From positions 1 through 10,649 of the forward strand of contig SLKW01000226.1 in assembly GCA_007134405.1 (NCBI GenBank): a stretch of 10,649 bases of DNA, written 5' to 3'. Positions 4,202 to 8,337 of this stretch are shown piece after piece. Within the stretch, counting starts at the first letter, position 1, and every line of letters begins with the position of its first letter. The translations under genes and the position numbers were made by a program. The notes under the pieces are model-generated. The model worked only from the letters and a program-made list of their open reading frames with translations, had not been told where the DNA came from and ran no database searches. Source of the stretch: Paracoccaceae bacterium. Its GTDB lineage: Bacteria; Pseudomonadota; Alphaproteobacteria; Rhodobacterales; Rhodobacteraceae.

Positions 4202-5614
4202 ATGAGCGCATATTTCAACGAGATGTACGACACCGGCGCGGTGCGCCCGCCCTACGCGCGGCTGCGCGACTGGATGGACGCCATGCCGACGGAGTTGCGC
4301 AATCTCAAGCAGGCCGAGGCCGAGGCGCTGTTCCGGCGCATCGGCATCACCTTCGCCGTCTATGGCGAGGGTGGCGACCCCGACCGGCTGATTCCCTTCG
4401 ACATGTTCCCGCGCGTCTTCGCCCATGACGAATGGCGCCGGCTCGAACGCGGGATCAAGCAACGCGCCCGCGCGCTCAACGCGTTTCTCTCGGATGTCTA
4501 CGACCGTGGCGAGATCGTGCGCGCCGGCCGCATCCCCGAGCGGTTGGTCTATCTGAACGAGGCCTACGAGAAGGCGGTGGCCGGCATCCGCCCGCCGAAG
4601 GGCGTCTACAGCCATATCGTCGGCATCGACCTGGTGCGCACCGGCCCCGACCAGTTCTATGTGCTGGAAGACAATTGCCGCACGCCCTCGGGCGTCAGCT
4701 ACATGCTGGAAAACCGCGAGATCATGATGCGGATGTTCCCCGAGCTTTTCCGTTCCAACCGGATCGAGCCGGTGGAGGGCTATCCCGAACTGCTGCGTCG
4801 CACGCTGGCCTCGGTCGCGCCCGAGAAGTGCAAGGGCGACCCCACGGTGGTGATCCTGACGCCGGGGCATTTCAACTCGGCCTATTACGAGCATTCCTTC
4901 CTGGCCGACCTGATGGGGGTCGAACTGGTCGAGGGGCAGGATCTGTTCGTCGAGGGCGAGTTCGTTTTCATGCGGACCACGCAGGGGCCGCAGCGCGTCG
5001 ACGTCATCTATCGCCGGATCGACGACACCTTCCTCGACCCGCTCTGCTTCCGACCGGATTCGATGCTGGGCATCGCGGGGCTGATGGATGTCTACCGCTC
5101 GGGCGGGGTGACCATTGCCTCGGCGCCGGGGGCGGGCGTGGCCGACGACAAGGCGATCTACTGCTTCGTCCCCGAAATGGTGCGCTTCTACCTGGGCGAG
5201 GAGCCGATCCTGGAAAACGTGCCGACCTGGCAATGCGCCCGGCACGACGACCTGAAATACGTGCTGTCCAACCTGCCGGAACTGGTGGTGAAGGAGGTGC
5301 ACGGCTCGGGCGGCTACGGGATGCTGGTGGGTCCCAAATCTTCGAAGGAGCAGATCGAGGCGTTCCGCGCCAAGATCCTCGAGGAGCCAGAGAAATACAT
5401 CGCCCAGCCGACGCTGGCGCTGTCAACCGTGCCCACCTTCGTCGAGGAGGGCGTGGCCCCCCGCCACGTGGACCTGCGCCCCTATTGCCTGGTGGGCGAG
5501 CGGATCGAACTCGTCCCCGGTGGGCTCACGCGCGTGGCGCTGACCGAAGGCTCGCTGGTGGTCAACTCGAGCCAGGGCGGCGGCGTGAAGGATACATGGG
5601 TGCTGGCGGAATGA
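4202..5614 (+). CDS. Circularly permuted ATP-grasp type 2 protein, first gene of the Anbu-associated module
   Basis: It is predicted to form an amide or peptide bond using ATP through an acyl-phosphate intermediate; the real substrate is unknown. The 470-residue length is normal for this family (formerly DUF404/DUF407). Recognisable blocks are YFNEMYD at the N-terminus, VLEDNCRTPSGVSYMLENR from residue 154, KEVHGSGGYGM from Lys364 (a likely nucleotide-binding lysine and glycine-rich loop), HVDLRPYCLVG from His422, GGLTRVAL, and the terminal SSQGGGVKDTWVL. No signal peptide or membrane segment is visible, so it should be cytosolic. It is followed by alpha-E, transglutaminase and Anbu genes, the conserved partners of this family, which supports a shared peptide-tagging or peptide-synthesis role. 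Unlike the next overlap in the module, a 196-base gap separates it from the alpha-E gene. The family call is firm; the function is inferred. Confidence 0.93.
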   Translation: MSAYFNEMYDTGAVRPPYARLRDWMDAMPTELRNLKQAEAEALFRRIGITFAVYGEGGDPDRLIPFDMFPRVFAHDEWRRLERGIKQRARALNAFLSDVYDRGEIVRAGRIPERLVYLNEAYEKAVAGIRPPKGVYSHIVGIDLVRTGPDQFYVLEDNCRTPSGVSYMLENREIMMRMFPELFRSNRIEPVEGYPELLRRTLASVAPEKCKGDPTVVILTPGHFNSAYYEHSFLADLMGVELVEGQDLFVEGEFVFMRTTQGPQRVDVIYRRIDDTFLDPLCFRPDSMLGIAGLMDVYRSGGVTIASAPGAGVADDKAIYCFVPEMVRFYLGEEPILENVPTWQCARHDDLKYVLSNLPELVVKEVHGSGGYGMLVGPKSSKEQIEAFRAKILEEPEKYIAQPTLALSTVPTFVEEGVAPRHVDLRPYCLVGERIELVPGGLTRVALTEGSLVVNSSQGGGVKDTWVLAE

Positions 5615-5690
5615 GGGACACGCTGAGCATCTTGAACGGGTCTGGCCGGGGGATGCCGCCCGTCTGGCAGGTGGTTGGGCCGAAAGTTTC

Positions 5691-5740
5691 ATTCCGGTTA
5701 ATGAATCAGAATATAATTAGAGAATTCAATGAATTGCGAG
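5691..5740 (+). promoter_or_regulatory. AT-rich internal promoter/operator candidate within the Anbu module
   Basis: This 50-base patch has only 15 G or C bases, set in DNA near two thirds GC. It contains a perfect TATAAT (5712-5717) with a poor -35 (TTTCAT or TTCATT about 18-19 bases upstream). It also holds repeated GAAT half-sites at 5703, 5709, 5722 and 5731, and the inverted repeat AATTC-AAT-GAATT (5723-5735). The composition and a consensus -10 suggest a promoter with start near 5724, driving alpha-E, transglutaminase and Anbu through a leader of about 87 bases. The weak -35 suggests an activator or an alternative sigma factor. This is inference from sequence pattern only. Confidence 0.45.
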
Positions 5741-5742
5741 TT

Positions 5743-5758
5743 TGTGCGCGCGCGCACA
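5743..5758. repeat. Perfect 16-base palindrome with alternating purine-pyrimidine tract
   Basis: TGTGCGCGCGCGCACA equals its own reverse complement. Strict pyrimidine-purine alternation extends to base 5759, the type of sequence prone to Z-DNA under negative supercoiling. It lies just downstream of the AT-rich patch and about 52 bases before the alpha-E start. It could be an operator, a supercoil-sensitive element, or chance in GC-rich DNA. Confidence 0.6.
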
Positions 5759-5799
5759 CTGCCGTGAATCACGACGCTTCTCCCCTTCCGTCGGTCAGC

Positions 5800-5803
5800 G
5801 GAG
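5800..5803 (+). promoter_or_regulatory. Ribosome binding site deciding the alpha-E start
   Basis: GGAG (within AGCGGAG) ends seven bases before the ATG at 5811. This favours the ATG over in-frame upstream TTG/GTG codons in the AT-rich or palindromic stretch. The family N-terminus MLSRTASNLYWLARYMERAE begins exactly at 5811. Confidence 0.65.
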
Positions 5804-5810
5804 CCGCGCC

Positions 5811-6764
5811 ATGTTGAGCCGCACCGCCTCCAACCTATACTGGCTCGCGCGCTACATGGAGCGCGCCGAGACCGCCGCGCGCCTCCTGGAGGTCGGCGCG
5901 CGCATCGCGCTGGTGCCCAATACCGGCCACGGCTACCGCAATGAATGGGACGCGCTGCTGCGCGCGGCGGGCACGGCGGCGCCCTTCGCGCAGAAATACG
6001 GCGAGCCGATCCAGCGCAACATTGAAAGCCATCTCTTCTTCGACCATGACAACCCCTCATCCGTGGCCGCCTGCCTGACGCAGGCGCGCGAGAACGGCCG
6101 GATCGTGCGCACCGCGCTGACCGTGCAGGTCTGGGACGCGCTCAACACTGCCTACCAGGAGCTGCGCGAGCTGGAGCGCACGCCGCGCGGCGAGCTTTCG
6201 CTCGCCCGCCTGACCGACTGGACGACGCGCAACACCGCCCTGGTGCGCGGGGCCATCGATGCGACGCAACTCAGGAACGACAACTACGATTTCATGCATA
6301 TCGGCTACCACCTGGAGCGCGCCGACAACACCGCGCGGCTTCTGGACGTGAAGTATTACGTGCTGCTGCCACAGGTCGAATTCGTGGGGTCGGGGCTGGA
6401 CAACTACCAGTGGATGACGCTTCTGCGCGCGATGTCGGCGCACCGGGCCTTCCACTGGGCCTATGGCGGCGAGGTGACGGCGCGGCGGATCGCGCATTTC
6501 CTGATCCTCAACCCGCAGTCGCCCCGCGCGCTGATCGCCTGCGTCGACGGGGTCAACGCGCATCTGGAGCGGTTGGCGCGCGGCTACGGCAGGCGGACGC
6601 AGGCCCAGTCGACGGCGCGCCGGATGCTCGCGCAACTCGCCGAAACCGAGGTCGAGGAGATCTTCGACGAGGGGCTGCACGAATTCCTGACCCGTTTCAT
6701 CGACGAGATCGGCGCGCTGGGTCAGACGGTGCATGACGCCTACCTGAGCGGGGATATTCGATGA
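5811..6764 (+). CDS. Alpha-E domain protein (DUF403 family)
   Basis: This 317-residue, largely helical protein belongs to the alpha-E family that accompanies circularly permuted ATP-grasp and transglutaminase genes. Its biochemical role is not established; it has been predicted to assist or act with the ligase. Family hallmarks are the N-terminal MLSRTASNLYWLARYMERAE and the second ER-containing helix GYHLERADNTARLLDVKYY (residues 165-183), each with conserved Glu and Arg residues. The C-terminal HEFLTRFIDEIGALGQTVHDAYL is also typical. No signal peptide or membrane helix is visible. The ATG at 5811 is chosen over an in-frame extension to 5742 because of the Shine-Dalgarno sequence and the family start. 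The stop overlaps the transglutaminase start (ATGA at 6761), so these two genes are coupled. Family membership is clear; function is open. Confidence 0.93.
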   Translation: MLSRTASNLYWLARYMERAETAARLLEVGARIALVPNTGHGYRNEWDALLRAAGTAAPFAQKYGEPIQRNIESHLFFDHDNPSSVAACLTQARENGRIVRTALTVQVWDALNTAYQELRELERTPRGELSLARLTDWTTRNTALVRGAIDATQLRNDNYDFMHIGYHLERADNTARLLDVKYYVLLPQVEFVGSGLDNYQWMTLLRAMSAHRAFHWAYGGEVTARRIAHFLILNPQSPRALIACVDGVNAHLERLARGYGRRTQAQSTARRMLAQLAETEVEEIFDEGLHEFLTRFIDEIGALGQTVHDAYLSGDIR

Positions 6765-7567
6765 GACTGCTGGTCGATCACGTGACGCGCTACCACTACG
6801 ACCAGCCGGTGCGGGGCGTCGTCCAAAGCCACCGCCTGACGCCCTCGCGCTTTGCCGGGCAGAAGGTGCAGTCCTGGGAGGTGACGGTTTCGGGCGGGCA
6901 GCGCGGCGGTGGCTTCCGCGACGGAGCGGGCGACTGGGTGCAGGCCTGGTCGGTGACCGGACCGGTGTCGGAGATCACTGTGCGGGTGCGCGGTTGCGTC
7001 GATACGATGGATCTGTCGGGCCTGCTGCGCCGCCATCGCGAAGCGATCCCGCCCACCGCCTGGTTGCACCCGACCGCACCCACCCGCACCGATGCAGCGC
7101 TTGTCGATCTGGCGCATTCGGCCTCGGGCAACGGGCCGCTGGCGCTGGCGCATGCGCTGTCGGACGCGGTGGCCGACGCCATCGCCTACCGCCCCGGCAC
7201 GACGCATGCCCACACGACTGCCGCCGAGGCGCTGGCCCAGGGCGAGGGGGTCTGCCAGGACCATACCCATGCGCTCATCGCCTGCGCGCGGGTCCGCGAC
7301 ATGCCGGCGCGCTACGTCTCGGGCTACCTCTATGCCACCGATGACGGCACCCCGCACGAGGCATCGCACGCCTGGGCCGAGGTCTGGGTGGCGGATCTGG
7401 GCTGGGTCGGGTTCGATCCGGCGAACCGCTGCTGTCCTGACGATCGCTACATCCGGCTGGGCTCGGGCGCCGACGCGCGCCAGGCTGCCCCCATCCGCGG
7501 CATCGCCCGCGGCAACGGCGAAGAACGTCTCGACGTCACGGTTGCGATAGAGGCGGCGCAGCAATAG
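6761..7567 (+). CDS. Transglutaminase-like cysteine peptidase of the ATP-grasp/Anbu module
   Basis: This papain-like-fold enzyme probably cleaves or transfers amide bonds; in this gene context it has been predicted to act on the product of the ATP-grasp ligase. The 268-residue protein has an N-terminal beta-rich transglutaminase-associated domain (about residues 1-90, starting RLLVDHVTRYHYDQPV) and a C-terminal catalytic core. The complete Cys-His-Asp triad is visible: Cys165 in GEGVCQDHTHALIA, His203 in EASHAWAEVW and Asp219 in GWVGFDPANR. No signal peptide is seen, so a cytosolic role fits with its partners. It overlaps the alpha-E stop by ATGA and is followed 44 bases later by the Anbu gene. 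The last ~20 residues are variable. The family call is firm; whether it acts as protease, amidase or transferase is unknown. Confidence 0.92.
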   Translation: MRLLVDHVTRYHYDQPVRGVVQSHRLTPSRFAGQKVQSWEVTVSGGQRGGGFRDGAGDWVQAWSVTGPVSEITVRVRGCVDTMDLSGLLRRHREAIPPTAWLHPTAPTRTDAALVDLAHSASGNGPLALAHALSDAVADAIAYRPGTTHAHTTAAEALAQGEGVCQDHTHALIACARVRDMPARYVSGYLYATDDGTPHEASHAWAEVWVADLGWVGFDPANRCCPDDRYIRLGSGADARQAAPIRGIARGNGEERLDVTVAIEAAQQ

Positions 7568-7611
7568 ACCACGACAATGGACAAGGCGCTCAGTTTGCGT
7601 AGAAAAGCGAG

Positions 7612-8337
7612 ATGACCTACTGCGTGGGATTGCGACTGAATGCCGGACTTGTCCTTCTGTCCGACACCCGCACCAATGCCGGTGTCGACAACATCGCCGT
7701 CTACCGGAAGATGTATCTCTTCGAAGAACCCGGCGAACGGGTCATCGCGCTTCTGGCGGCAGGCAACTTGTCGGTCACGCAGACCACGATCGCCCGTCTG
7801 AAAGAAGCGATCAAGGAGCCCGACGCGACCGAGAAGACCTCCATCATGAAGGCGCATACGATGCTCGACGTGGCCGAAATCATCGGTAGCCAGATGGCGT
7901 CGGTGCGCCGGGACGTGGATGAAAAGCTCTCCCAATCGGGGCAGAGCGCCCTGGCCAGCATGATCGTCGGCGGGCAGCGCAAGGGCGGCGAGTTGCGCCT
8001 GTTCCTGGTCTACAGCCAGGGCAACTTCATCGAGGCGACCGAAGACACGCCCTTCCTGCAGATCGGCGAGCACAAATACGGCAAACCGATCCTGGACCGG
8101 GTCGTGCGCCCCGACACCCTGCTGGGCGATGCCAAGAAGGCTGTGCTCTTGTCGATGGACTCGACCTTGCGGTCGAACCTTTCGGTGGGCATGCCGCTCG
8201 ATCTGTGCGTGATCGAGCGCGATGCGTTCCAGGTCGGAGAGTATCGCCGCATCGAGGCGGGCGACGAACAGTTCCGCCACATGTCGGAGGCCTGGTCGAC
8301 CGCGCTGCGCGAGGCCTTCCAGAAAATCACCCTGTGA
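7612..8337 (+). CDS. Anbu-type bacterial proteasome-like protease
   Basis: Anbu is an Ntn-hydrolase related to proteasome beta subunits and HslV, assembling in published structures into open or split rings of about a dozen subunits. This 241-residue protein starts MTYCVGLRLN. Removal of the initiator Met would expose the catalytic Thr1, and Asp17 (in LLSDTRTNAGVDNI) and Lys32 (in YRKM, aligning with HslV Lys33) follow at the expected spacing. That requirement fixes the start at 7612 although the upstream AAAAGCGAG is a poor Shine-Dalgarno sequence. Other family blocks are ALLAAGNLSVTQ and the MIVGGQRKGGELRLFLVYSQGNFI region. It is the last gene of the module, 44 bases after the transglutaminase gene, and no dedicated ATPase gene (such as hslU) lies nearby in the window. 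Family identity is near certain; substrates are unknown. The symbol anb is sometimes used but I leave it blank. Confidence 0.93.
   Translation: MTYCVGLRLNAGLVLLSDTRTNAGVDNIAVYRKMYLFEEPGERVIALLAAGNLSVTQTTIARLKEAIKEPDATEKTSIMKAHTMLDVAEIIGSQMASVRRDVDEKLSQSGQSALASMIVGGQRKGGELRLFLVYSQGNFIEATEDTPFLQIGEHKYGKPILDRVVRPDTLLGDAKKAVLLSMDSTLRSNLSVGMPLDLCVIERDAFQVGEYRRIEAGDEQFRHMSEAWSTALREAFQKITL

Follow-up and report, generated by a model that had tools for sequence, protein, structure and literature searches.

A module that combines an ATP-grasp ligase, the helical protein Alpha-E, a transglutaminase-fold cysteine peptidase (TG) and the proteasome-like protein Anbu was reportedly predicted by Iyer et al. 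in 2009, as related in later papers that cite the work. PMC5666114 and PMC6376114 treat the same gene set as the Anbu operon. The window analysed in this study is an entire contig of 10,649 bp (SLKW01000226.1) from a draft genome of a Paracoccaceae bacterium (2.83 Mb in 502 contigs, 82.94% complete), and at positions 4202-8337 it encodes all four families, arranged as in that operon and in one orientation. The window is an ordinary, intact copy of an already described, widespread module, and the module, its gene order and the structures of Anbu are already known. What our comparison of loci adds is that the ligase and Alpha-E are probably one enzyme, to which Anbu is an optional addition. Our tentative proposal, to which we give somewhat less than an even chance, is that the module runs a nitrogen-stress cycle making and breaking an amide, by the ligase/Alpha-E enzyme plus TG and, where present, Anbu.

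The initial annotation, made from the sequence alone, placed four intact genes in this order, and both the open reading frames and Pfam agree: all four are open and unbroken on the + strand. The circularly permuted ATP-grasp ligase (type I; 470 aa, positions 4202-5614) matches PF14403 (550.9 bits) and PF04174 (495.4 bits), and among named ligases those of a Rhodobacteraceae bin (93%) and of Pararhodobacter sp. SW119 (91%) are nearest to it. Alpha-E (317 aa, positions 5811-6764; PF04168, 302.9 bits) begins after a gap of 196 nt, the only difference from the described operon that we noted and nothing disqualifying. The reading frame of TG (268 aa, positions 6761-7567; PF08379, 64.6 bits; PF01841, 77.5 bits) overlaps that of Alpha-E by 4 nt. 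Anbu (241 aa, positions 7612-8337), a proteasome-like N-terminal nucleophile hydrolase, scored 25.5 bits against PF00227, for which the cut-off is 22.4. The residues that had been named as catalytic were all found where they had been placed, namely K364 of the ligase, C165/H203/D219 of TG, and T1/D17/K32 of Anbu after removal of the first Met. The predicted catalytic residues of the ligase, TG and Anbu are thus all intact in the window, by a check of the sequence.

Whether gene order is conserved had been put forward as a check, and 76 of the 80 loci compared in Rhodobacteraceae turned out to share the order and orientation ligase/Alpha-E/TG/Anbu. In three of the other loci (L149, L150 and L151) the contig stops too early for Anbu to be read, and in L121 Anbu is absent from ~8 kb of sequence 3' of TG. 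In a class sample of 144 alphaproteobacterial genomes, in which Anbu was sought by single-sequence search, we found the ligase in 59 genomes, Alpha-E in 58, TG_N in 60 (the weakest of the four counts, as TG_N has paralogues) and Anbu in 46. The families co-occur (Fisher test, p = 6e-40 for Alpha-E/ligase, 4e-40 for ligase/TG and 4e-26 for Anbu/ligase), albeit these p values are overstated because the tests, like those given below, treat genomes as independent. The sole ligase-bearing genome without Alpha-E (G127) has its ligase cut at a contig edge. The ligase lies upstream of Alpha-E on the same strand for 81 of 82 Alpha-E copies, with 74-477 nt between the end of the ligase profile and Alpha-E; the remaining copy begins 23 bases from a contig end and is cut there. 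Furthermore, 21 Alpha-E copies are fused to the ligase and share with it a single open frame of 798-1018 codons. As nearly all copies of Alpha-E stand directly behind the ligase and these 21 are fused to it, the ligase and Alpha-E are probably one enzyme.

Anbu behaves otherwise, being an optional addition to the near-identical genome sets of the ligase, Alpha-E and TG. It was not found in 13 of the 59 ligase-bearing alphaproteobacterial genomes by the single-sequence search, nor, by profile search of 299 genomes sampled across the phylum, in 58 of the 171 genomes bearing Alpha-E. In the latter sample 115 genomes carry Anbu, of which 113 also carry Alpha-E and two (members of one genus, the exception to the co-occurrence) do not, and 126 genomes have neither. 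Six copies of Anbu in the class sample follow Alpha-E straight away without TG between them, and elsewhere in that sample Anbu lies apart from the pair. The four-gene unit of the initial annotation therefore holds as far as conserved order and co-occurrence are concerned, but it is not indivisible, the ligase/Alpha-E pair being fixed and Anbu optional. Similarly, of the case that had been named as its refutation, genes scattered without co-occurrence, one half is seen, as Anbu or TG lies apart from the pair in many genomes, but the families still co-occur. In the genus of G226 and G374 (loci L211 and L212), Anbu is present and the ligase and Alpha-E fall below the search thresholds. At L215, in a genome of that taxonomic family, Anbu adjoins the pair and the flanking genes are shared as judged by eye, which suggests that the genus lost the ligase/Alpha-E pair.

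Alpha-E itself is an internal duplication. When the halves (~9-148 and 161-306 of the window protein) of a 60-sequence alignment were compared with hhalign, the probability was 99.0 and E was 3e-18, against a best E of 0.032 in 20 column shuffles. Each half contains an ER motif (E17/R18 and E169/R170), followed by an NPSS- or PRS-like motif. Sixteen positions show at least 93% conservation across the 60 sequences (type I and type II), and seven of them are Arg (R14, R18, R24, R31, R100, R170 and R239) and two Glu (E17 and E169); Alpha-E may accordingly be suited to bind an acidic partner. Neither a single-sequence nor a profile search gave a solved relative of Alpha-E. The only five structure matches of the profile, cullin-4B three times (E 0.001-0.0035), uL29 (0.11) and VP35 (0.99), were taken as chance matches between helical repeats, and a paper on HEPN, considered as a lead for DUF403, was set aside because the match in it concerns DUF4037.

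The ligase occurs in two forms, of which the window has type I. The window ligase matches the solved structure 3N6X (E 6.2e-196), and its E156, N158, K364 and Gly-rich stretch 369-373 are intact. Across 110 type I sequences (81 from Rhodobacteraceae, the window included, and 29 others), E156, D157, N158, R160, D315, D316, K317, K364, 369-373, H422 and D424 are kept in 109-110. Type II is the form fused to Alpha-E, for which we collected 140 sequences (20 from the class sample and 120 from the database, partly the same proteins). None of the 140 retains E156, N158, D316 or D424, and D315 is replaced by Glu in all of them; few keep K317 (1), G370 (3), R160 (5) or H422 (8), and K364 and D157 are kept in 32 and 122, respectively. 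Nevertheless, R88, D98, D143, R146, E230, H231, R271, R272, D274 and D279, and likewise R426, R444 and D464, persist in 137-140 of the 140. This pattern of substitution would fit a type II protein whose ATP binding is lost or altered and which retains a face, common to both types, for the substrate or for Alpha-E. An unfused pair is present as well in each of the 21 genomes that have a fused copy. TG lies directly 3' of the fusion in 20 of 20 type II loci, 17 of which (all except L185, L187 and L188) include a TG-containing open reading frame of 1,075-1,566 aa, and no Anbu match was found on the same strand within 5 kb 3' of any fused copy in the class sample. One such large protein was examined with Pfam, that of L202, a locus adjoining an Anbu gene and lying outside the 20 type II loci; it consists of TG and DUF2126, annotated as 'putative amidoligase'. 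The literature surveyed, which did not cover Iyer et al. 2009, contains no description of the Alpha-E duplication or of the changed type II motifs.

TG of the window matches 3ISR (E 6.3e-12) and is a predicted cysteine peptidase with the triad C165/H203/D219; by fold and triad it could be either a hydrolase or a transamidase. Three of 17 rows in the type I TG alignment (L007, L011 and L026) lack the catalytic Cys and have Ser, Tyr and Pro instead, and the genomes of these three loci also carry a fused type II copy. Anbu of the window matched five solved Anbu-type chains (5LOY, 5NYJ, 5NYF, 5NYW and 5LOX; E 1e-55 to 8e-78), and T1, D17 and K32 are invariant in 19 aligned Anbu proteins. T1 of Pa-Anbu reacts with epoxomicin (PMC5666114), albeit no peptidase activity of Anbu was seen on the proteasome substrates tested in the available parts of two studies (PMC5666114, PMC6376114). 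Connectase, a relative of Anbu, is a ligase (PMC8665760).

The proposed cycle can be laid out as follows. The ATP-grasp ligase and Alpha-E would form one obligate enzyme, in which the ligase would activate a carboxylate with ATP and join it to an amine, yielding an amide or short peptide, and the two proteins would touch each other. Alpha-E, as a duplicated helical subunit whose conserved charges are mostly Arg, would supply or shape the site for an acidic substrate. The product of the ligase is presumably small, and TG and, where present, Anbu would act on it, cutting or transferring the same kind of bond. Under nitrogen shortage, such a make-and-break cycle of amides could serve to store, salvage or recycle amine or amino nitrogen, and we suppose that this role also holds in the organism of the window.

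The nitrogen component, which is absent from the initial annotation, comes from published regulation that points to nitrogen stress. In Pseudomonas putida grown on nitrate versus ammonium, PP_2685 ('bacterial proteasome, beta subunit') and PP_2688 ('circularly permuted ATP-grasp type 2') had log2 fold changes of 4.44 and 3.99, respectively, together with urtA (4.37) and ureD (4.38) in the same set (PMC8050072). The N-limited column of a second P. putida study gives 11.1, 6.6 and 7.1 for PP2685-2687 (PMC3325844), and in a third set PP_2686-2688 were up 12.6, 11.0 and 14.7, i.e., 11- to 15-fold (PMC7801951). In an ntrC mutant of Burkholderia cenocepacia, DUF404/407 (-8.2), DUF403 (-9.4), TG (-9.4) and the large TG (-6.0) were all lowered (PMC5491218), and in marine metagenomes the domains of the module were associated with urea-metabolism domains (PMC3597751). 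HvyA, a transglutaminase homologue, is named in a Caulobacter NtrC paper. In our class sample, UrtA exceeded the cut-off in 28 of 59 module genomes versus 6 of 85 genomes without the module (Fisher test, p = 4e-8; p = 0.011 with genome size as a covariate). The association was clear for the type II group (21 fused genomes plus G106, in which a contig end truncates the copy): UrtA was present in 17 of 22 versus 6 of 85 genomes (p = 2.1e-4 with genome size; p = 0.48 for the PhnE control). Comparing the 21 fused genomes alone with all other genomes gave p = 6.3e-5.

A number of observations weigh against the proposed cycle, beyond the treatment of genomes as independent. The PhnE control was associated with the module as well when genome size was left out (27/59 versus 9/85, p = 3.3e-6; p = 0.29 with size), and the p of 0.011 for UrtA in the whole module is carried by type II. 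In type-I-only genomes UrtA occurred in 11 of 37 versus 6 of 85 (p = 0.45 with size; 0.39 for PhnE), so that UrtA was rejected as support for the kind of module that the window has, and the genome of the window, ~83% complete, has no UrtA over the cut-off. A sigma-54 site scoring at least 9 within 300 nt 5' of the ligase was found in 3 of 80 loci (3.75%), compared with 4.4% in the background, and with no excess in these loci a sigma-54 promoter in the Rhodobacteraceae lineage was likewise rejected. As these three results are negative, the case for a nitrogen role of the window copy is made by what has been published on other bacteria, and the failure of the UrtA link in type-I-only genomes led us to rate the proposal lower. 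Moreover, PP_2685 was up just 1.12-fold in the third P. putida set (PMC7801951). On the biochemical side, the ligase of Yersinia bercovieri (YbATP-grasp) releases phosphate from ATP, but this could be plain ATP hydrolysis, and neither Anbu, HslV, Gln nor Glu stimulated the release over that of the ligase alone; in the available parts of the same study, no complex between Anbu and the other proteins of the operon was found (PMC6376114). Fuchs et al. prefer protein degradation over peptide synthesis (PMC5666114). An alignment of the window ligase with 22 GSP_synth sequences was not significant (hhalign, E 0.23). Finally, the literature surveyed names no substrate or product of the module, in agreement with the initial annotation.

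The degradation preferred by Fuchs et al. would suit a second explanation, in which Anbu is a starvation protease for protein turnover, and the other three proteins (ligase, Alpha-E and TG) serve as its regulators or activators without a substrate in common. We regard this as quite improbable. Anbu does stand apart from the ligase/Alpha-E pair in some genomes, and the genus of G226 and G374 keeps it with no ligase or Alpha-E above threshold. However, Alpha-E accompanies Anbu in 113 of 115 genomes, and the ligase, Alpha-E and TG persist in genomes where Anbu was not found; the absence of stimulation by Anbu and of a complex in PMC6376114 speaks against this explanation too.

A third explanation takes its model from the Pup-proteasome system: proteins would receive an amino acid or peptide from the ligase, TG would take it off again or crosslink it, and Anbu would degrade the proteins so marked. 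Two bond-making or -editing proteins do adjoin a proteasome homologue whose T1, in Pa-Anbu, is reactive, and a possible source of unfolding activity was seen at divergent Anbu loci (L191-L199; 30-38% identity). In six of these nine (L191-L194, L196 and L199) a gene of the Clp/Hsp100 family begins at a distance of 0.6-1.9 kb from Anbu and runs in the opposite direction to it, and four of the six have a ClpS-family gene; one gene of each kind was identified by Pfam (both in L192) and the others by clustering. The Clp/Hsp100 gene may mark an unfoldase link or may be plain shared synteny, and most of the Clp-linked loci are surrounded by phasin and D-Ala-D-Ala carboxypeptidase genes. Pfam detected no ring ATPase or unfoldase gene in the window, and HslU is encoded on another contig (C493) of the same genome.

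The initial annotation had remarked on the want of a ring ATPase and of an obvious small tag gene beside the module, and this holds within the window. We extended the search for a tag to the 80 Rhodobacteraceae loci by collecting open reading frames of 20-100 aa in space free of other called genes within 3 kb, and clustering them with larger neighbours. No family of at most 100 aa recurred in at least six of the 80 loci, a result that is weak for products of 20-40 aa, for overlapping frames and for tags encoded elsewhere. One neighbour family with a median of 105 aa, which we take to resemble SCP2, occurs in 19 loci with only one member of 100 aa or less, and larger families without Pfam identification recur in up to 46 of the 80. 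Considering also that Anbu is missing from 13 of 59 ligase genomes and 58 of 171 Alpha-E genomes, and that the proteasome substrates tested were not cleaved by Anbu, we judge protein tagging to be rather unlikely.

The neighbouring genes bear equally on the peptide-synthesis idea of the original prediction, in which the module makes a secreted or signalling peptide or a modified metabolite, and TG and Anbu are its maturation peptidases. Operon logic and ATP-grasp chemistry favour such a synthesis, and COG2308 has been placed possibly in small-peptide biosynthesis (PMC8407117). Nevertheless, the small-gene search that gave no tag also gave no candidate precursor of at most 100 aa recurring beside the module, although transporters may be present among the larger neighbours that Pfam did not name, and the occurrence of Alpha-E in 171 of 299 sampled genomes suggests a general role for the module rather than a specialised one. 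We would give this idea little credence.

The gap between the ligase and Alpha-E (196 nt, positions 5615-5810, + strand) is 2-19 nt long in 62 of the 80 relatives and 73-198 nt in the other 18. The two closest relatives (L091 and L092) have in common with the window AAAG(G)TTTC...GGTTAA and an inverted repeat (positions 5683-5765 in the window), which is kept although its letters differ. Folding was significant only in L091 (z -3.21), and neither in the window (z -0.70) nor in L092, so that an intergenic hairpin was rejected as an element of the gap. Rfam gave no match in the window, which led us to reject an RNA element of that type as well. The module is preceded by genes for a CoA-transferase (cut by the contig end), an AMP-forming acyl ligase and a short-chain dehydrogenase, and followed by those for DksA, an FAD monooxygenase and exonuclease III (Xth; cut by the contig end). 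The last three are all found 3' of the module only in L091 and L092 among the 80 loci (L127 has DksA and the monooxygenase, but in a different order and orientation), and DksA was rejected as a part of the system. None of the four proteins had a match in NCBIfam or in PADLOC, and with no PADLOC match a defence system was rejected.

Two further observations concern the Anbu end of the module in other genomes. Sixteen of the 76 complete loci (L104, L109, L110, L112, L113, L118, L119, L122, L126, L128, L129, L130, L136, L137, L141 and L168) have an extra gene between TG and Anbu, often with a hydrophobic 3'-encoded end, which is missing from the window; it also precedes the contig end in L151, and two members tested had no Pfam match. 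In L204 a gene next to an extra Anbu copy belongs to the xanthine/aldehyde oxidase large-subunit family, and in L203 one of this family lies ~1.6 kb from such a copy.

The module deserves attention because it is common in the phylum, as the frequency of Alpha-E indicates, and because one of its proteins is closely related to the proteasome. Should the ligase depend on Alpha-E, the assay reported for it, carried out with no Alpha-E, had a subunit missing, and this would help explain why no substrate response was obtained. A bolder extension, which we consider unlikely, regards the ATP-grasp protein as half an enzyme completed by an anciently duplicated, Arg-rich Alpha-E that holds an acidic peptide or tRNA-like substrate; like its relative connectase, Anbu would act as a transpeptidase or ligase in a nitrogen-controlled amide cycle and not as a protease for degradation, and the fused type II proteins would be ATP-dead scaffolds lending that substrate face to DUF2126, a second ligase, in urea-importing cells. 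Nitrogen regulation in Pseudomonas and Burkholderia indicates the growth condition to examine first.

Compared with known systems, the window is closest to the Anbu operon, to whose solved Anbu proteins its own Anbu is homologous. The type II module (a large TG protein, the fused ligase-Alpha-E and TG) shares the ligase, Alpha-E and TG families with the window, but its fused ligase has changed motif residues that the window keeps. With the Pup-proteasome system the common point is a ligase adjoining a proteasome homologue; the likeness drawn in the initial annotation is weakened, however, because no Pup-size gene recurs beside the module and the window has no ring ATPase, and the ligase of the Pup-proteasome system is glutamine-synthetase-like rather than an ATP-grasp protein. 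GspSA, the glutathionylspermidine synthetase/amidase, offers another comparison, in which a permuted ATP-grasp ligase works with a Cys amidase. In the non-significant alignment with the 22 GSP_synth sequences, D143...E156-x-N158...TPSG...VVKE...Q402 of the window ligase line up in order, and the D, E-x-N, K and Q residues of these motifs are catalytic in GspS; the residues that type I keeps and type II mostly changes include this motif. Membership of the glutathionylspermidine synthetase family is not supported, as PF03738 is absent from the Pfam matches of the window ligase and the profile similarity is not significant. The name of 3N6X in PDB, 'putative glutathionylspermidine synthase', is annotation only, and we know of no counterpart of Alpha-E or Anbu in GspSA. 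By analogy, then, the best reading is that the module may work more like the synthetase/amidase cycle of GspSA than like the Pup-proteasome system.

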